A DNA stretch of 42,904 nucleotides, taken from contig JBAXGN010000050.1 in assembly GCA_037139415.1 (NCBI GenBank), positions 1 through 42,904 of the forward strand, written 5' to 3'. Position 1 is the first letter of the stretch. Every line of letters begins with the position of its first letter. A model generated the notes under the pieces. It made no database searches, was not told the origin of the DNA, and saw only the letters and a program-made list of their open reading frames with translations. This stretch comes from Verrucomicrobiota bacterium. GTDB lineage: Bacteria > Verrucomicrobiota > Verrucomicrobiia > Limisphaerales > Fontisphaeraceae. Both the position numbers and the translations under genes were made by a program. This document shows positions 13,501 to 25,051 of the stretch, piece by piece.

Positions 13501-13742
13501 TTCATGCCCCACCACCCTTGAAACTGGATGCCTGGCAATCGTGGAAGCGACGTCCCGTCGCTTTCGTGGTCCCATCGCTTTCTTCTATTCCTCTGATTAT
13601 TCCACACCTCCCGGCCTTCTCCCTTTCGCGTCAACCCAAGGAACGCGGATCTCCGGTCCGCGTGGCTTTGACTGCTTTAGCCGCACGCACTGCGGTGGGA
13701 ATAACCGAAGCTACTCCCGCGGCCCCGAGGGAGAGGAAACAG

Positions 13743-13818
13743 GTGAGGGGGTACGCAACCACAGACCCTGCCCACCTCGTAGTATTCGTAACGCACCAAC
13801 GCGCTTGATGCAGCCCTG
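13743..13818. repeat. 76-bp dispersed repeat, copy 1
   Basis: This segment matches 24970-25045 at 70 of 76 positions by eye, beginning GTGAGGGGGTACG and ending GATGCAGCCCTG. At the other site it forms the right end of a MITE-like element. Here the element's left part is absent and the repeat joins directly to the 58-bp repeat. Confidence 0.8.
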
Positions 13819-13873
13819 CCTACTCATTGTGGATGCCGGATTCCGCTCGACTTGATGGGACGGGCCGCGCTAG
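13816..13873. repeat. 58-bp dispersed repeat, copy 1
   Basis: This segment matches 21903-21960 at 55 of 58 positions by eye, from CTGCCTACT to GGCCGCGCTAG. It contains GATTCCGCTCGACTTGATGG in both copies. It overlaps the end of the 76-bp repeat by 3 bases. Confidence 0.85.
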
Positions 13874-14106
13874 CCCGCGAAACCTTCGCTAATTCACACG
13901 AAGCGGAACCAGGAATCGGATTTTGCAGAGAAATTAACCGGCAAAAAGATTGATGTACGGAAGATGAGGACGGAAAAGCGGGATGAAAAATCTTTACAAT
14001 ACCGGTGGCTGGTCCTATGTGTAACCACTGACAGAAGAAAACCATGATGATGATATAACTTAAACCATAATAATATTTTAGATTTTGCGTAGCTTCGGCT
14101 GCTGTT

Positions 14107-14267
14107 CACTACGAAACGTGGAAATTTCGCATTCAAGGACGGCGCTAGAAGCGCGCCCCAATCGGGGCGCGCTGAAAGCGTTCCTTGAAAGGCATCCACG
14201 TGCCTGTAGTGGGGCGTAAGTAGGTTCGCCCCTTTCGTTTTTCAGGCACGCGGTTCTTTTCAAGGAA
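14107..14267 (+). promoter_or_regulatory. Nested, mutually exclusive hairpins upstream of the nuclease-helicase gene
   Basis: Fold A (14107-14211): CACTAC/GTAGTG, ACGTGGA (14116-14122)/TCCACGT (14195-14201), TTCAAGGA (14132-14139)/TCCTTGAA (14182-14189), and a perfect 10-bp stem AGCGCGCCCC/GGGGCGCGCT (14150-14159/14164-14173). Fold B (14181-14267): TTCCTTGAAA/TTTCAAGGAA (10 bp), CGTGCCTG (14199-14206)/CAGGCACG (14243-14250), and GGGGCG/CGCCCC (14211-14216/14227-14232) followed by a T-rich stretch. Both folds need bases 14181-14211, so they compete. This geometry suits an attenuator or structured leader RNA. A composite palindromic repeat with no regulatory role is the alternative. No known riboswitch family is recognised. 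Confidence 0.5.
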
Positions 14268-14312
14268 GCCATCCCAACAGAGGGCTGAGCGCACACGCAA
14301 GCGTTTCAGCCT

Positions 14313-17300
14313 ATGAATTGGAATGGTGGTACTGCACCCGAATTTCCCGGTTCCTGGTCCGATTTAACTTTCATTACCAACGAACCCGGAAGGAGTCTTG
14401 GCGACCGTTTTGCGGTTCTCCTTGGCGAAGACACGCGCCGGTTTGATTGTCTGGTGGGTTATTTTTTCATCAGCGGTTTCCATAATCTCCATCCCGCACT
14501 CACCAAGACCGAGAAGATTCGCATTCTCGTCGGTATCAAAACCGACCGGGCGGCCCATGATTTGATTCAGACGGCCAAACAGCAGCAGGAGTTCGTACTG
14601 GAGTCGCACGCCCAGGTGCGGCAGCAGGTTCCCGGTGAAATACTGGGTGAGTTCCAGAAATCCGGGGATAGTTCGGACATTGAAGAGGGGGTCCGCAAAT
14701 TTGTGGAGTGGATCAGGTCCGGCATACTGGAAGTGCGCGCGTATCCCTCGGAGCGGTTGCACGCCAAACTGTACATTATGACCTTCCAGGATGGCGACCG
14801 GGACAAGGGGCGCGTCATCACGGGGTCCAGCAACTTCACCGAGGCGGGTTTACAGGAAAATCTGGAGTTCAACGTCGAGTTGAAAAACCGTTCCGACTAC
14901 GACTTTGCCCTCCAGAAGTTTAATGAACTTTGGGCCAAGGCGGTGGATGTGACCCAGGATTATGTCACCACCATTGAGGTCAAATCCCCGTATGCGCAAT
15001 TCTCGCCGTACGAACTCTACCTGAAATTCCTCTACGAATATTTCCAGCGGGAACTCAACCTGCCGGATGAAATCGAAGACAGCTATCTGCCGACGGGATT
15101 CAAAAAGCTCAAGTACCAAGAGGAAGCCGTCCTGAATGCCCGCAAGGTGCTGGATGAATACGGCGGCGCGTTTTTGTCCGACGTGGTCGGGCTGGGCAAA
15201 ACCTACATGTCCGCCCTGCTGGCCCAACATTTAAACGAACCGTGCCTGGTTATCGCCCCACCCCATTTGCTGGATGAACACAATCCCGGTTCGTGGCCGA
15301 ACGTTTTCCGGGATTTCGGGGTACGCGGCTATTTGTGCGAATCCCTGGGAAAACTGGAATCCCTGCTGGAGCGGGACCTGCAAAAATTCACCGTGGTCTT
15401 CATTGACGAGTCGCACCGTTTCCGCAGCGAGGATACGCAGAGCTACGAAATGCTGGCGCAGATTTGCCGGGGCAAGCGCGTGGTGCTGGTGTCGGCCACG
15501 CCCCTCAACAATACCCCGCAGGACATTTTGAGCCAGATCAAGCTGTTCCAACCGGGGAAGAACAGCAGCATTCCCAACGTCCGCAATCTCGAAGCCTTCT
15601 TTGGCGCGCTCCGGCGGAAGCTGGAGGGTCTCGACCGCCAGCGCGACCGCGAGGCGTATTTCAAGGTGGTCCAGGAAAACGCCCGCCAGACGCGCGAGAA
15701 AATCCTCAAATTCCTGATGATCCGCCGCACGCGCACCGAAATTGAAAAATACTATGGCGACGATTTAAGGCGGCAAGGCTTGAAATTTCCCGAGGTCACC
15801 AATCCCGAACCGCTCTTTTACAAGTTCAACCGGACAGAAGGCCAGGTGTTTGACGAAACCATCCGGGCATTGACGCATGAGTTCAAATACGCCCGGTACA
15901 CGCCACTGGCCTACTACACTGGCGAGCGGGATGAGCAGGCGATCCAGAGTCAGCGCAACCTGGCCAAGTTCATGAAAATTCTCACGGTGAAACGCCTCGA
16001 AAGCAGTTTCACCGCGTTTCAGTTGACGCTGGGGCGGTTCATCCACACCTACGAGCGGGTGATTGCCGAGTTTCACAAGGGACAGGTTTTCATCAGCAAG
16101 AAACACATTGGGAAGGTGTTTGAATTGCTGGAATGCGACAACCAGGAAGGCATTGACCGGCTGTTGGAGGAGGAAAAAGCGGAGCGGCTGGCGGCTGAGG
16201 ACTTTCGCCCGGACTTCATCACCGATCTGGAAAACGATTTGAAGGCCCTGAAAGCCATCCGCACCCACTGGAAAAAAATCACGCGGGACCCCAAGTGGGA
16301 AGCGTTCCGCGTCATCTTGAAGCAAACGGCACGACTTAAAGACGGCAAACTCATCATTTTCACCGAATCGCAGGAGACCGCCGATTATCTGGCCGGCAAA
16401 ATCCGGGCCGAGGTCGAACCCAAGGTGCTGCTCTTCACCGGCCAATCTTTGAAAACGGTCCGCGAGGAGGTGATTGCCAACTTTGATGCCAAGGCCTACC
16501 GGCCCAAGGACGATTACCGTATTCTGGTGGCCACCGAAGTACTGGCTGAAGGCGTCAACCTGCATCGCTCGAACGTCGTCATCAATTATGACATCCCGTG
16601 GAATCCCACGCGGCTGATCCAGCGGGTGGGCCGGGTGAACCGAGTGGATACCAAGTTTGATCAAATCCACACCTACAATTTTTTCCCGACGGACGAAAGC
16701 AACGACCTGATTAAATTGCGGGAAGCCGCCGAGGCCAAGATTCATGCCTTCATCCAAATGCTTGGCGCGGACGCCCGGCTGTTGACCGAAGGCGAGGAAA
16801 TTGTCTCGCACGACCTGTTCGCCCGGTGGAATTCCAAGCAGACCATTACCGGAAAGGACGAGGAGGAGGAAACCGAACTCCAGTACCTGACCGAAATCCG
16901 CGCCGTGCGCGATCAGCACCCGGATCTTTTTGAACGCATCAAGCGTTTGCCCAAAAAGGCGCGATCCACACGAATGTTGGGCGAGGCCTTGGTTCCATAT
17001 TTCCCCGCGCTGTTCACCTATTTTCGCCAGGGCAAGCTCGATAAATTTTTCGTGGGCGCATCCGGCAAAGCGTCGGCCACCGAATTGGACTTCATGTCCG
17101 CCGCAAAGATATTGAAGCCCGCCGACCTTAAGGAGCCGCGCCAACCAATCCCGCGCGAGTTTTATGAATTGCTGGACGGAAACAAGGCCGCGTTCATCGC
17201 CGTTACCACCGGTGAGGCGGAGTTGGCTGAGGAATCCCACCGGGGCGACCGGAATGCGGCCTATATTTTGAAGCGCCTTAAAGCGCGGGAAATCCGTCGT

Positions 17301-17558
17301 TGCCAACAGTTCACCGAGGACGACGAGGAATTTGTCGGCAAAATCATCCGGCTGACGGATGAGGGGGCGCTACCCAAACGCACCGCCAAGGAACTGGCCG
17401 CAAAACTCAAGATCGAGATTGAGCCGTTAAAAGTACTCGCCATCTTGCGGCGCGAGGTTAAATCCGAATTATTGAAGGCCGCCCCGACCGCACAGGCGAG
17501 CCAGGGGCAATTTCCGCGTGAAGTCATTCTATCCTCTTATCTGGTACAAATCTCATGA
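14313..17558 (+). CDS. PLD-type nuclease fused to SF2/SNF2-like helicase (restriction-modification component)
   Basis: A 1081-residue two-part enzyme. The N-terminal phospholipase-D-type nuclease region (about 20-200) shows a single HxK...GSxN site: His150 and Lys152 in LHAKLYI, then GSSNFTEAG (171-179) and ENLEF (182-186). The SF2 motor follows: SDVVGLGKT (289-297, Walker A region), VVFIDESHR (361-369, DExH), SATPLNN (394-400), LIIFTES (680-686), VATEVLAEGVNL (739-750) and QRVGRVNRV (770-778, arginine fingers). The remaining C-terminus (about 800-1081) is unassigned. It overlaps the methyltransferase start by 4 bases (ATGA at 17555-17558), so the two products are probably made together. The likely role is ATP-driven DNA translocation and cleavage of unmethylated DNA. 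No Shine-Dalgarno sequence is visible at the start; hairpins lie upstream. Confidence 0.85.
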   Translation: MNWNGGTAPEFPGSWSDLTFITNEPGRSLGDRFAVLLGEDTRRFDCLVGYFFISGFHNLHPALTKTEKIRILVGIKTDRAAHDLIQTAKQQQEFVLESHAQVRQQVPGEILGEFQKSGDSSDIEEGVRKFVEWIRSGILEVRAYPSERLHAKLYIMTFQDGDRDKGRVITGSSNFTEAGLQENLEFNVELKNRSDYDFALQKFNELWAKAVDVTQDYVTTIEVKSPYAQFSPYELYLKFLYEYFQRELNLPDEIEDSYLPTGFKKLKYQEEAVLNARKVLDEYGGAFLSDVVGLGKTYMSALLAQHLNEPCLVIAPPHLLDEHNPGSWPNVFRDFGVRGYLCESLGKLESLLERDLQKFTVVFIDESHRFRSEDTQSYEMLAQICRGKRVVLVSATPLNNTPQDILSQIKLFQPGKNSSIPNVRNLEAFFGALRRKLEGLDRQRDREAYFKVVQENARQTREKILKFLMIRRTRTEIEKYYGDDLRRQGLKFPEVTNPEPLFYKFNRTEGQVFDETIRALTHEFKYARYTPLAYYTGERDEQAIQSQRNLAKFMKILTVKRLESSFTAFQLTLGRFIHTYERVIAEFHKGQVFISKKHIGKVFELLECDNQEGIDRLLEEEKAERLAAEDFRPDFITDLENDLKALKAIRTHWKKITRDPKWEAFRVILKQTARLKDGKLIIFTESQETADYLAGKIRAEVEPKVLLFTGQSLKTVREEVIANFDAKAYRPKDDYRILVATEVLAEGVNLHRSNVVINYDIPWNPTRLIQRVGRVNRVDTKFDQIHTYNFFPTDESNDLIKLREAAEAKIHAFIQMLGADARLLTEGEEIVSHDLFARWNSKQTITGKDEEEETELQYLTEIRAVRDQHPDLFERIKRLPKKARSTRMLGEALVPYFPALFTYFRQGKLDKFFVGASGKASATELDFMSAAKILKPADLKEPRQPIPREFYELLDGNKAAFIAVTTGEAELAEESHRGDRNAAYILKRLKAREIRRCQQFTEDDEEFVGKIIRLTDEGALPKRTAKELAAKLKIEIEPLKVLAILRREVKSELLKAAPTAQASQGQFPREVILSSYLVQIS

Positions 17559-20500
17559 ATACCCAACAGGCCCGTGCCCTTGTCAAAGAAACATTTCCGC
17601 AGGCTTTTGACAAAGTCCGCTTTCACCAGTTCGTCAAGGAATTGCTCAACGGCTTCAACGAAGACAAGTCATCGGCCATGCAGGTGCCCGATGCTTATGC
17701 TGACCATATCCGCAGTTGCGCTCGGTTGGGCACCTACCAGTCGCCGGATGGCGAAATGGCGGATGTGCTCATTGTCCATACCACGGAACCCTGGAAGTTG
17801 GAACGCACCCGTACCGCGCTCCGCGATTTTGTCGGGCATAAATTGAAACGTGGGGACAGCTACAAGGAAGCCGGCCTCGTCGCCTTTGTGGCACCGGATG
17901 CCCGTACCTGGCGTTTTTCATTCGTCCGCATGGAGTATGAAACCAAACGCGACCCCAAGACTGGGAAAATCGCCGCAGAAGAACGCCTCACCCCGGCCCG
18001 GCGCTACTCTTATCTGGTCGGCGGGAATGAAAGCTGTCACACGGCCCAAAGCCGGTTTCTCGACCTGCTGCAAGATACCGAAAATCTTCCCACATTGGAG
18101 CAGATTGAGGACGCCTTCAGCGTCGAAGCCGTCACCAAGGAATTCTTTGAGCAATACAAGGCCCTGTTTCTCGACCTCAAAGACGAACTGGACGATCTCG
18201 CCAAGCGGGACAAAACCATTGGCGCGGAGTTTGCCGGCAAACAGGTCAGCACCGCCGATTTTGCCAAAAAGCTCATGGGGCAGATTGTCTTCCTCTACTT
18301 CCTGCAAAAGAAAGGCTGGCTCGGCGTGCCCAAGGGCGGCAATTGGGGCGACGGCCCGCACAATTTTCTCCGCCAGCTTTTCGTGGGCCAATTCAGAAGT
18401 TACAAAAACTTTTTCAACGACATCCTGGAACCGCTCTTTTATGACACACTCGCCACGGATCGCGGCCAGGAGGCATGGTGTAAAATCTTTGGGTGCCGCA
18501 TCCCGTTCCTGAATGGCGGACTCTTTGAGCCGGTCGCTGGCTACAACTGGCAGAAGACCGATATCATCATCTCCAACTCGCTGTTCTCGAACACAAAGTC
18601 CACCGACGCGGGCGACACAGGCACGGGCATTCTGGATGTGTTCGACCGCTACAATTTCACTGTCAACGAAGCCGAACCGTTGGAAAAAGAAGTGGCCATT
18701 GACCCGGAAATGCTCGGCAAGGTGTTCGAGAATCTGCTGGAAGTGAAGGAGCGTAAATCCAAGGGCTCGTTTTATACCCCGCGCGAAATCGTCCACTACA
18801 TGTGCCAGGAAAGCCTGATCAATTACCTGGATACGGCGCTTAATTCTGAATCTGGTAGCAGCCGACGTGAGGAGCCTCATTCGGAAAAACCGGCGGCGGA
18901 AAATCAGAGTCTCTATACGTCGTCTCCTACGGGGGCGATGATTCATCGCGCCGACCTCGAAACCTTCATCCACTCCGGCGACCATGCCAGCTACTACGAG
19001 GCCGCCCGGGTGGAGGGCACGGGTTACAAACGCAACCTCCCCAAGATAATTGAAACCCATGCCCGGCTGATTGACGATAAACTCGCCGATATTGCCGTGT
19101 GCGACCCAGCCATCGGTTCCGGCGCGTTTCCCGTGGGCATGATGCAGGAAATCGTCCGCGCACGCATGGCGCTGACACCCTACTTCAACGCCGTCCAAGA
19201 ACGGACGCCTTATCATTTCAAACGCCACGCCATTCAGAACTGCCTCTACGGCGTGGATATTGATCCCGGCGCGGTGGAAATCGCCAAGTTGCGCCTCTGG
19301 CTCTCGCTGGTGGTGGACGAAGACGACGTGAAACAAATCAAGCCGCTGCCCAATCTGGATTACAAAATTGTCAATGGGAATTCATTGCTGGGCGTGGATA
19401 AAAACGAACTGGAAAATTGGCAGGCGTTTCACCGGCTCGAGGAAATCAAACCCAAATACTTTGACGAAGCGCATGGTGATAAAAAACACGGATACAAACG
19501 CGATATTGACAAGCTTATCCACCAACTTACCAACGGTAAATCTGCGTTCGATTTCGAAATATATTTTTCCGAAATATTTCACCGCAAGAAAGGTTTTGAT
19601 GTGGTCATTGGCAATCCCCCATATGTCCGGCAGGAAGCCATCAAAAATTTAAAGCCCGCGCTCAAGGCCGAAGGTTACGAGTGCTACACCGGCACGGCGG
19701 ACTTGTATGTGTATTTCTTCGAGCGCGGCGTGCGCTTGCTCCGCTCGGCAGGAACACTAGCCTACATTTCGAGCAACAGTTTTCTAAACTCCGGATTTGG
19801 TGAGAATTTGCGCCGCTATCTGTCCTCCAATACGCGTATCCTCCAACTCATAGATTTCGCGGAAACCAAGGTCTTTGAAGCCATTACAGAACCGTGCGTG
19901 ATTTGCCTAACGCGTGACAGAGCGGTTAACCACGAAACGAAGTTTCTGAAATGGGAGCAATCTTCTTTGCCAGAAAGAATCAAAGAAGTCTTTGCGACCC
20001 GCTCGCAAACCATTCCGCAGCGTGAATTGAAAGCGGAAAGCTGGCAGCTTGAATCGCCCGTCGTGCTGCGGTTGCTGACAAAACTCCGCTGTGTCGGAAA
20101 GCCTCTTGGCACCCACGTCAACGGGCGATTCTATCGCGGTATCCTAACTGGCTTAAACGAGGCGTTTGTTGTTGATCGCACCACCCGCGACCGCTTGATT
20201 CGCGAGCACAAATCTTCCAGCGAAATTCTCAAACCATTTCTGCGCGGGCGTGACGTTAAGCGATGGCAAACCGAGTTTGCCGAACAGTATCTCATCAAAA
20301 TTGAATCCTCGGAAAACAAAGACCATCCGTGGTCGGACAAATCAAATAAAGAAGCCGAAGAAATCTTTGCGAAGTCTTATCCGGCAATTCACTCGCACTT
20401 TGAGAAGTTCCGCAGGGAGCTCATCAAGCGTGAAGACCAAGGCAAATACTTTTGGGAACTGCGGTCGTGCGCATACTGGCAAGAGTTCAAACACCCAAAG

Positions 20501-20899
20501 ATTATTTATCAGGAAATCAACCGGACAGACTGTTTTGCTTACGACGATTCTGGCTATTTCGCCAACAACAAGTTGTTCATGCTGCCAAATGCCCCACTAG
20601 AATATCTTGGTTTTTTCAACTCTCGTTTGGGCAGTTGGTATTTGCACAATTTCACCGGAGTTCCGATGGGAGGCTTTCTCGCTTTGCAATGGCCGGTGAT
20701 CAAAACATTTCCCATTCCCGTCGTGGCATCTGAGGCCCAAAAGCCAGTGGCACGGTTGGTTGAGCGGATTTTGGCGGCAAAGCGGCGCGATGCCGAGGCG
20801 GACACGAGCGCATTGGAGCGGGAGATAGACAAGTTGGTGTATGCGCTCTACGGCCTGACGCCGGAGGAAATTACAATCGTGAGGGATGCAATGAAATGA
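17555..20899 (+). CDS. Eco57I-like N6-adenine DNA methyltransferase with C-terminal target-recognition region
   Basis: A 1114-residue protein. The N-terminal region (1-390) has no catalytic motif I can name. The methyltransferase core follows: GSFYTPREIV (404-413), motif I DPAIGSGAFPVG (517-528, SAM binding), YGVDIDPGAVEIAKLRLWLS (565-584), and motif IV NPPY (687-690), which marks N6-adenine methylation. From about 700 the sequence matches the TaqI-like specificity pattern (YISSNSFLNSGFGENLRRYL, then FLRGRDVKRW, then FANNKLFML and GFFNSRLGSWYLH). It is probably the modification and recognition subunit paired with the nuclease-helicase. Residues 434-459 are encoded by a palindromic repeat inserted in frame between YLDTAL and IHRADLETF. 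Confidence 0.88.
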   Translation: MNTQQARALVKETFPQAFDKVRFHQFVKELLNGFNEDKSSAMQVPDAYADHIRSCARLGTYQSPDGEMADVLIVHTTEPWKLERTRTALRDFVGHKLKRGDSYKEAGLVAFVAPDARTWRFSFVRMEYETKRDPKTGKIAAEERLTPARRYSYLVGGNESCHTAQSRFLDLLQDTENLPTLEQIEDAFSVEAVTKEFFEQYKALFLDLKDELDDLAKRDKTIGAEFAGKQVSTADFAKKLMGQIVFLYFLQKKGWLGVPKGGNWGDGPHNFLRQLFVGQFRSYKNFFNDILEPLFYDTLATDRGQEAWCKIFGCRIPFLNGGLFEPVAGYNWQKTDIIISNSLFSNTKSTDAGDTGTGILDVFDRYNFTVNEAEPLEKEVAIDPEMLGKVFENLLEVKERKSKGSFYTPREIVHYMCQESLINYLDTALNSESGSSRREEPHSEKPAAENQSLYTSSPTGAMIHRADLETFIHSGDHASYYEAARVEGTGYKRNLPKIIETHARLIDDKLADIAVCDPAIGSGAFPVGMMQEIVRARMALTPYFNAVQERTPYHFKRHAIQNCLYGVDIDPGAVEIAKLRLWLSLVVDEDDVKQIKPLPNLDYKIVNGNSLLGVDKNELENWQAFHRLEEIKPKYFDEAHGDKKHGYKRDIDKLIHQLTNGKSAFDFEIYFSEIFHRKKGFDVVIGNPPYVRQEAIKNLKPALKAEGYECYTGTADLYVYFFERGVRLLRSAGTLAYISSNSFLNSGFGENLRRYLSSNTRILQLIDFAETKVFEAITEPCVICLTRDRAVNHETKFLKWEQSSLPERIKEVFATRSQTIPQRELKAESWQLESPVVLRLLTKLRCVGKPLGTHVNGRFYRGILTGLNEAFVVDRTTRDRLIREHKSSSEILKPFLRGRDVKRWQTEFAEQYLIKIESSENKDHPWSDKSNKEAEEIFAKSYPAIHSHFEKFRRELIKREDQGKYFWELRSCAYWQEFKHPKIIYQEINRTDCFAYDDSGYFANNKLFMLPNAPLEYLGFFNSRLGSWYLHNFTGVPMGGFLALQWPVIKTFPIPVVASEAQKPVARLVERILAAKRRDAEADTSALEREIDKLVYALYGLTPEEITIVRDAMK
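18855..18930. repeat. Palindromic repeat inserted in frame within the methyltransferase gene
   Basis: Two 24-nt arms (18855-18878 and 18907-18930) are inverted copies matching at 18 of 24 positions, sharing GTAG-AG-CGACGT and AG-CTC. They enclose a 28-nt centre. The segment adds a polar Ser/Glu/Pro-rich stretch (SSRREEPHSEKPAAENQSL) to a loop between conserved blocks. The length keeps the reading frame. I recall similar GTAGCAGCCGACGT palindromes in intergenic DNA of this phylum, but that is memory, not a search result. Confidence 0.6.
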
Positions 20900-20980
20900 A
20901 AACCATTCCATATCGTGGTGACAACATCCGGCACAAAGCGCGGCTTGGGGTGGCGCGTTCCACTGGCAGGAGCGTGGTCT

Positions 20981-21013
20981 GAATTCGAGATGCGGATTGC
21001 GGATTGCGGAATG
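20981..21013. repeat. GCGGATT-type degenerate tandem repeat
   Basis: Units GATGCGGATT, GCGGATT and GCGGAATG follow a GAATTCGAG word. Read on the opposite strand this is the ATCCGCAATCCGC family seen at 945-970 and 34968-35003. It lies in the short gap after the methyltransferase gene. Confidence 0.5.
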
Positions 21014-21046
21014 GGCAAAGTTCAGGCTACAGGAGGCGGCGAATAC

Positions 21047-21075
21047 ACCGCGAAACACGCGAAGCACGCGAAAGG
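21047..21075. repeat. ACACGCGAA degenerate 9-bp repeat
   Basis: Three iterations (ACCGCGAA, ACACGCGAA, GCACGCGAA) follow one another between the methyltransferase gene and the minus-strand gene at 21097. It is non-coding and would read as TAKHAKHAKG. Confidence 0.55.
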
Positions 21076-21096
21076 CCGTAGGCGCCACGAATTCGG

Positions 21097-21669
21097 TCAA
21101 CGACAATCGTCTTTTCCCAAGCGAGCCACCCTTCCCGATTTTTTGCCGCCGAGGAAATCGCTTTTAATTGCCAAAAGACGCTCCTTTTGTGCGGCCTCGA
21201 ATTTGACTGCGGCTTCGTCACGTTCCAAAGTGAAGATATTATCTTTTTCCTTCTTTTCGATGGATTCGAGATTTTTGCGATATTTTGGGTCTTGGGCTAA
21301 AATGACGAACTTGGTTGAGAAGCCCTGTCGGTCAATCGCCAGATCATAAACTTTATCTGCCACCAAATCAGCCGTGACTACGGCGACGTTGCTCCCAATG
21401 GCGATAAAAGACTTCGTTCCAGGCTCACATGTGAGTTGGCACTCACTGTGTTGAGGCAGATCCATCAGAAATGTTCCGTCCTCGCCAAAAATAGCGTAAC
21501 GCACGAGATCGCGAAAAGTACCGTGTATATTCACCAACACCTTTCCTTTGGGGGGAAGATCTATTCGGGCAACCTTCGTGATGCGAGTATCAGCGCCGTT
21601 GACGGGCAACAACAATAACGGAAGAATTCCGAGGTAAAGAAGGAGACGGACTGACGACTTTTTCATCAT
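21097..21669 (-). CDS. Exported hypothetical protein, possibly DUF2846-like
   Basis: A 190-residue protein starting MMKKSSVRLLLYLGILPLLLLPVNGADTR, a clear signal peptide without a lipobox cysteine. The mature N-terminal part (IDLPPKGKVLVNIHG, then YAIFGEDGTFLMDLPQHSECQLTCEPGTKSFI) has the rhythm of DUF2846-type beta-rich periplasmic proteins, in which a PP-x-GKALVY strand is followed by a cargo strand and a tail. The C-terminal third (about 125-190) is a charged helix (RKNLESIEKKEKDNIFTLERDEAAVKFEAAQ) that may form a coiled coil. It is convergent with the methyltransferase gene, has no operon partner, and its function is unknown. Confidence 0.6.
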   Translation of the reverse strand: MMKKSSVRLLLYLGILPLLLLPVNGADTRITKVARIDLPPKGKVLVNIHGTFRDLVRYAIFGEDGTFLMDLPQHSECQLTCEPGTKSFIAIGSNVAVVTADLVADKVYDLAIDRQGFSTKFVILAQDPKYRKNLESIEKKEKDNIFTLERDEAAVKFEAAQKERLLAIKSDFLGGKKSGRVARLGKDDCR

Positions 21670-21973
21670 AACTGATCAACTGGTATGAAATTGAATTTGT
21701 GTCATAATCATTCTTGAGGCAGGATACGTTTTTCTATGCGCAGGACAAGAATATTTTCGTTTTTACACTCTGTGCGTTTGAACTCGCCCTTTTGGGAAAA
21801 CTTCCATTAGCCTGACGCCGATGGGCTAAAACCGGAACTTCAAACTGAGCTTTTCCCCCCCCCCAACACCTTTAGGCCGATTGGCACTTTCATGCATACG
21901 CGCTGCCTACTTATTGTGGCTGCCGGATTCCGCTCGACTTGATGGGGCGGGCCGCGCTAGGGTGCCGCCCAGC
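21670..21973. other. Intergenic region with a C10 run and the 58-bp repeat
   Basis: No gene is seen. A TTAGCC/GGCTAA hairpin lies near 21806-21830, a run of 10 C at 21855-21864, and the 58-bp repeat copy at 21903-21960. The repeat ends only 13 nt before the Dabb gene ATG, so it forms most of that gene's leader. Confidence 0.55.
21903..21960. repeat. 58-bp dispersed repeat, copy 2
   Basis: Second copy of the repeat at 13816-13873 with three differences by eye. It directly precedes the Dabb gene and must be transcribed with it, or contain its promoter, unless the promoter lies in the 13 bases that remain. Confidence 0.85.
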
Positions 21974-24614: not shown

Positions 24615-25051
24615 CGCGGGCCAGGGCTGCATCAAGCTCGGTTTGGTTCAAGCCAAACCGCCAACGTAGGTGACGACGAACGAGTCTCAAACAGGACGGC
24701 GCGGGAAATTTTGGAGTGCGGTGGCAACTGCCGGGGGAAAAGGGGCGACGGGCGACACCGCTTTGGATTTGCTCCGTCCAGTTACGTGAGCGCGGGAGGC
24801 CACGGCGGCTTCCCAATGACGTCAGGCGGTATTCCGCCGCCCAGCGGGACGGGATAATCACAGGCTTGCTGGTGCGCCCATCCAAAGCGGCGTCGCGGCC
24901 CCCGTCACCCCACCTTGCCGCCGCACTCCAAAACCTGCGGCTCCCGCGCTTCCTTGGGCACGGGCCAAAGTGAGGGGGTACGGCACCACCGACCCTGCCC
25001 ACCTCGTATTATTTGTAACGCACCAACGCGTTTGATGCAGCCCTGGCCGCG
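24615..25051. mobile_element. MITE-like non-autonomous element with inverted ends
   Basis: The ends are inverted copies: CCAGGGCTGCATCAA at 24621-24635 and its complement TTGATGCAGCCCTGG at 25032-25046, extended outward by CGCGG (one base difference). Inside are an 8-bp hairpin (24639-24646/24653-24660), and two longer imperfect inverted arms, 24709-24768 and 24880-24933, which share TTTTGGAGTGCGG outermost and CCGCTTTGGAT innermost. No transposase is encoded, and no target-site duplication could be recognised with certainty. Confidence 0.55.
24970..25045. repeat. 76-bp dispersed repeat, copy 2
   Basis: Matches 13743-13818 at 70 of 76 positions by eye. Here it forms the right portion of the MITE-like element. 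Confidence 0.8.

Follow-up and report, generated by a model that had tools for sequence, protein, structure and literature searches.

Two adjacent genes in a Verrucomicrobiota contig probably form a self-contained, ATP-dependent restriction-modification system, in which a PLD nuclease fused to a helicase is paired with an N6-adenine methyltransferase. Within the window, the whole stretch of 42,904 nucleotides analysed here, both genes lie on the forward strand, the first (14313-17558) encoding a PLD nuclease-SF2 (SNF2-like) helicase of 1081 aa and the second (17555-20899) an N6-adenine methyltransferase of 1114 aa with a target recognition domain (TRD). The two reading frames overlap by an ATGA at 17555-17558 that places the methyltransferase start inside the helicase stop, and on these coordinates, lengths and overlap the initial annotation was accurate. 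Its broader proposal, a two-gene, PLD-armed defence system resembling restriction-modification, is well supported; the nuclease and methyltransferase genes are cognate and linked, as in restriction-modification systems generally.

The first protein carries its PLD nuclease domain at residues 58-207 (14484-14933), with H150, K152, N174 and E185 as catalytic residues. No aspartate completes an HxKx4D motif after the HxK, the site being of the HxK...GSxN...E type, and the best PDB profile match of the domain is SauUSI (7clg, E=1.7e-8). Downstream lie a Walker A motif, GLGKT (residues 293-297, 15189-15203), helicase motif II, DESH (residues 365-368, 15405-15416), and a C-terminal RecA domain (residues 669-778, 16317-16646; Pfam Helicase_C, E=3e-22). 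The PLDc_2, SNF2/ResIII and Helicase_C matches all exceed curated cut-offs, in agreement with the earlier assignment of PLD and SF2 helicase to this protein. Across 18 relatives, phage copies included, H150, K152, N174, E185, K296, D365, E366, R771 and R774 are invariant, as is H368 of motif II, and even nine distant paralogues possess HxK and GSSN. When compared with most close relatives, including those of other phyla, the helicase has a dN/dS of about 0.07, and although dS is near saturation and calls for caution, this value indicates strong purifying selection along the whole length of the protein. Because homology to relatives starts only at residue 16, the true start may be slightly off 14313. 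In databases such PLD-helicases are usually annotated as merely 'helicase-related protein'.

The second protein matches Eco57I, N6_Mtase and TaqI_C, all above curated Pfam cut-offs, consistent with the N6 methyltransferase and TaqI-like recognition region read from it originally. Motif I, DPAIGSG (residues 517-523, 19103-19123), has D517, P518, G521 and G523 invariant in the 18 relatives, and motif IV, NPPY (residues 687-690, 19613-19624), has N687, P688 and P689 invariant, with Y690 replaced by W in one of the 18. Since motif residues of both proteins are invariant among these relatives, the motifs did not arise by chance; HAK (150-152), GSSN (171-174), GKT (K296), DESH, DPAIGSG and NPPY were all found where the annotation had placed them. 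The TRD, which includes TaqI_C (residues 893-1054), occupies residues about 760-1060 (19832-20734) and is hypervariable. The PADLOC model PDLC03596 (REase_MTase_IIG) matches the methyltransferase at full length, over residues 1-1110, with 920 bits.

Structural comparison is constrained by poor AlphaFold models (pLDDT 61 and 55, built from 13 and 19 sequences), so that fold matches outside the methyltransferase, TRD and RecA parts were left unused. The helicase model resembles RapA, and BrxX/PglX aligns with residues 189-1114 of the weak methyltransferase model (Z about 12, rmsd 16-18). Both likenesses would suit a BREX-like exclusion system, in which a PglX-like methyltransferase is accompanied by a helicase that blocks phage DNA replication or transcription and cuts nothing. 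Against it stand the invariant PLD site, whose HxK and GSSN signatures are still present in distant paralogues, and the lack of any recurring gene of the PglZ or BrxC/DUF499 type near the pair; we regard non-cutting exclusion as quite unlikely.

A homologue scan of 84,980 species genomes returned 22 loci, in which full-length copies of the helicase are 60-84% identical. They are distributed among Verrucomicrobiota, Planctomycetota, Omnitrophota, Armatimonadota, Pseudomonadota, Desulfobacterota, Elusimicrobia and Acidobacteria. Most relatives are metagenome bins whose individual phylum labels may be wrong, and several of the contigs exceed 60 kb. At this level of identity the helicase is present in 3 of 39 near relatives and in 21 of 338 genomes of the phylum, and its tree intermixes phyla; the two-gene family is thus widespread but patchy. 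The genes are strictly paired: in each of the 18 related bacterial loci whose downstream DNA could be read, the next gene of the system on that strand is the methyltransferase, and it follows the helicase likewise in six of six viral contigs. The initial annotation had allowed that homologues might always occur with further required genes, which is not so: no third gene recurs around the pair in related loci. Inserted genes for ORF6N, a four-helix bundle with a Zn ribbon, a Gp49-like protein and an IS-type transposase were each considered as a third component and rejected, as they lie between the pair in a few loci and do not recur. In two viral contigs (L100, L103) the pair interrupts head, endolysin or terminase genes, which argues that the two genes are enough as cargo. 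The initial annotation had missed the wide spread of the family and its carriage by phages, as well as the private N-terminal domain of the methyltransferase and the Type IIG filing in PADLOC.

Several loci depart from the simple arrangement. Small cargo genes lie between helicase and methyltransferase, encoding a four-helix bundle with a Zn ribbon, ORF6N or a VapC toxin (L020:4221-4964 and L032:13191-13973; L022:13216-13779 and L031:13117-13785; Synechocystis NZ_CP054308.1 for VapC), and such insertions suggest that the helicase-methyltransferase junction is an exchange hotspot. At L037:2062-6231, a remnant of the helicase described here (residues 16-266, 84% identical) stands directly before a complete PLD-helicase of a different, distant kind, one system having been replaced by another. 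Related PLD-helicases of Thermus oshimai (NC_019388.1, L044) and Allomeiothermus silvanus (NC_014214.1, L043) occur in reversed order, as methyltransferase, hypothetical gene and helicase.

The pair in the window itself lies outside any defence island, among housekeeping-type neighbours (transaldolase-like, amidohydrolase, Dabb, CoaE and G6PDH-like). GC content is 51-56% over the pair versus about 60% in the flanks, and a 61-nt direct repeat (left copy 13813-13873, right copy 21900-21960, both on the forward strand and 93% identical) encloses a unit of 8.1 kb (13813-21960) comprising the pair and a 190-aa ORF. The core 24-mer of this repeat occurs twice in the whole 7.9-Mb assembly, at the two flanking copies, and together with the GC dip this suggests that the 8.1-kb unit is acquired DNA. 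In an empty-site comparison, relatives kept the amidohydrolase and none of the remaining flanking genes. A separate 105-nt intergenic repeat (13714-13818 and 24941-25045, 82% identical) abuts the 61-nt repeat with its left copy. The same genome holds further, more distant PLD-helicase loci on contigs C148 (L047), C63 (L048), C282 (L049) and C221 (L054), two of which have cargo ORFs between helicase and methyltransferase that by eye resemble DUF3800, DUF1016 and ORF6N.

What links the two proteins is most plausibly the N-terminal domain (NTD) of the methyltransferase, an unnamed region of about 210 residues (1-210, 17555-18184) that matched neither a Pfam family nor a PDB structure in profile searches and that is mostly modelled at pLDDT below 70. 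When the 338 phylum genomes were searched with the NTD, 16 of 17 strong matches followed a PLD-helicase of this family, encoded on the same strand, at a distance of 0-2.7 kb; in the seventeenth genome the helicase is cut by the contig end. By random placement, a match would fall within 3 kb with a chance of about 1 in 1000, the matches being non-independent through shared ancestry. From this linkage, and from co-divergence with the helicase, the NTD is predicted to be a module that docks the helicase.

The NTD also bears on whether the methyltransferase is instead a true Type IIG enzyme with its own nuclease in this domain, the PLD-helicase being a separate, type IV-like neighbour. The full-length PADLOC match fits such an enzyme, and in structural alignment residues 161-893 of MmeI align with residues 193-1114 of the weak methyltransferase model; because MmeI aligns only from its residue 161, the NTD occupies the place of the MmeI nuclease domain. 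Yet the domain lacks any match to a nuclease family, its invariant polar residues (D70, R86, R90, R120, S122, R150, S152, E159, H162, T163 and E191) form no PD-(D/E)xK triad in the 18 relatives, and it is almost never seen without the helicase. An independent Type IIG enzyme is for these reasons unlikely. Speculatively, the NTD could derive from a nuclease domain that lost its activity and came to serve in coupling.

Comparison of 18 complete pairs shows how differently the parts of the system have evolved. Except in a variable linker near 441-480, methyltransferase identity runs at 0.4-0.9 as far as residue 715 or so and is about 0.2-0.3 beyond it, and mean pairwise identity is 21% for the TRD versus 63% for the helicase. 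Helicase distances correlate with those of the NTD (Mantel r=0.86), the middle of the methyltransferase (0.78) and its catalytic part (0.72), but are uncorrelated with those of the TRD (r=0.01, p=0.44). In one pair of loci (L019 and L022) the helicases are 94% identical and the TRDs 13%, which is background. Shared operon ancestry could in part account for the tracking of helicase and NTD, but no such tracking is seen for the TRD, which belongs to the same gene as the NTD. Sequence tracking of the NTD and its lack in the TRD thus point to the helicase as a constant motor and the TRD as a freely exchanged reader, the signature to be expected of such a division of labour.

Three relatives, two of them viral contigs, possess silent TRD cassettes in inverse orientation adjoining a serine recombinase. 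The cassette of viral contig L102 (13630-15440) lies beside a resolvase (15501-16100), with an inverted repeat of 291 nt, 98% identical, and the silent ORF has about 97 residues near-identical to the methyltransferase and is divergent beyond. The inverted repeat of viral contig L122 (10485-12911) is 306 nt long, its copies sharing 88% identity. Prevotella nigrescens (NZ_CP082843.1, about 385000-391500; L121) has an Mpi-type invertase together with two such cassettes, and a 47-nt repeat there sits on the GNPPY codons. Judged by this arrangement, the inverted cassettes are a specificity switch in these relatives; a search of the window found no inverted repeats of this kind, and so no invertible TRD.

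Pin17FIII of Prevotella intermedia 17F, an m6A methyltransferase of about 1117 aa described in the literature as a Type IIG enzyme of one chain, is flanked by an upstream SNF2/RAD54 helicase and a downstream inverted gene fragment; cloned and expressed alone, it methylated GGYGAB (m6A), and two further related motifs in the genome were left unexplained (PMC5608340). Likened to the window pair by its published description, this locus is a probable relative. If it is a member, methyltransferase activity without the helicase has already been demonstrated, and TRD inversion would account for the two extra motifs, and so for a strain with three related motifs of which one is assigned to a cloned gene.

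These observations can be assembled into a mechanism. The second protein would methylate adenine at sites chosen by its TRD and so mark host DNA as self; on meeting the same site unmethylated, it would recruit or activate the first protein through the NTD. The first protein would then translocate on DNA by SF2 ATP hydrolysis and cut with its PLD domain, the active site being built from two protomers if BfiI and SauUSI are a guide. The domain make-up, catalytic invariance, purifying selection, pairing, NTD tracking, TRD exchange and mobility are seen in the sequences, and from these we infer a complex of the two proteins, translocation, cleavage and an anti-phage effect. We lean, by a modest degree, towards a further generalization, that the pair represents an unnamed class in which a constant PLD-helicase effector is served by a modification enzyme doubling as a swappable guide, a private NTD couples the two, and some members, phage contigs included, flip specificity by inversion of a TRD cassette.

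Should this reading be right, the Type IIG label that PADLOC attaches to the methyltransferase family, and REBASE to the Prevotella example, names the wrong nuclease, the actual cutter being the adjoining PLD-helicase. The same label has already been amended by REBASE for BREX PglX (PMC12707154). Free exchange of TRDs around a constant motor would in addition amount to a natural experiment in the re-targeting of restriction systems. Whether the pair had been catalogued before was raised by the initial annotation, and the answer is divided: PADLOC files the methyltransferase alone as Type IIG, so that existing catalogues include only this half, but the pair was not found under a single named type, and no paper naming it was found in the open-licence literature.

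The initial annotation proposed a split relative of Type ISP enzymes such as LlaGI or LlaBIII. These enzymes likewise combine nuclease, helicase, gamma-class N6 methyltransferase and TRD, with presumed translocation-coupled cutting, but they do so in a single chain with an Mrr-type nuclease, whereas the window pair consists of two chains with a PLD nuclease, and the genes are separate in every readable relative too. Sequence matches to Type ISP enzymes were sought and none was recovered, the nearest solved nuclease being that of SauUSI and the nearest methyltransferases CamA, BseCI and BREX PglX; the absence of LlaBIII among the matches listed for the weak structural model is evidence neither way. 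Given the lack of sequence match, the two chains and the PLD domain in place of Mrr, this kinship was rejected.

Several multigene systems share parts of the architecture. Type-2 BREX-related helicases have an HKD-SNF2 architecture and the systems pair such a helicase with an N6 methyltransferase (PMC12839542), as does the window pair, but these systems and Hma require a DUF499 ATPase and DUF3780. DUF499 (PF04465) had no match in the 98%-complete host genome, and 7 of 12 related genomes lack it as well; with the defining genes missing, Hma and BREX-related membership was rejected. In DISARM class 1 (DrmD-DrmMI) and ARMADA, a SNF2/RapA-like helicase gene stands beside a PglX-like methyltransferase gene (PMC12458937), but both need a YprA-like helicase (DrmA/DrmB or ArmC), and none lies near the window pair; the sole MZB/DUF1998 (DrmB/YprA-type) match in the host genome is on another contig, and none recurs in the loci of relatives. 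The helicase scores 139.6 bits against the DrmD equivalog, far under the cut-off of 610, and with DrmA/DrmB missing at the locus DISARM membership was rejected as well. The absence of these extra genes is as first annotated. A reduced locus of either kind, having lost its ATPase or DrmA/B and surviving mainly as a methyltransferase, would explain the HKD-SNF2 architecture and the weak similarity of the helicase to DrmD and HmaA. Decay would not keep this pair conserved, however, with the whole helicase under purifying selection, the pair occurring by itself across many phyla and in phages, and most of the related genomes devoid of any DUF499, and such a remnant is very unlikely.

For the cutter, the nearest worked example is SauUSI, whose PLD domain is closest to the present one among solved structures. 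It unites PLD nuclease and SF2 ATPase in a single polypeptide and is an ATP-dependent translocating restriction enzyme in which two protomers form one PLD site and the ATPase is the motor (PMC7913695). Unlike the window pair, it reads 5mC with its own SRA domain and has no methyltransferase partner; no SRA domain was detected by Pfam scan in either window protein, and here the second protein would both read and mark. In CglI and NgoAVII a PLD nuclease cooperates with an SF2 ATPase in restriction-modification (PMC5737866, PMC4267653), but their PLD domain shares a chain with a B3 reader while the ATPase stands apart, whereas here PLD and ATPase are fused and the reader resides in the methyltransferase. 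That methyltransferase is of the Eco57I/IIG class with a C-terminal TRD, as in Type IIG enzymes, but a nuclease in its own chain is not evident. The pair is, in our assessment, a variant of ATP-dependent restriction-modification that has a hitherto unrecognised domain for coupling and, in certain relatives, a TRD switch.
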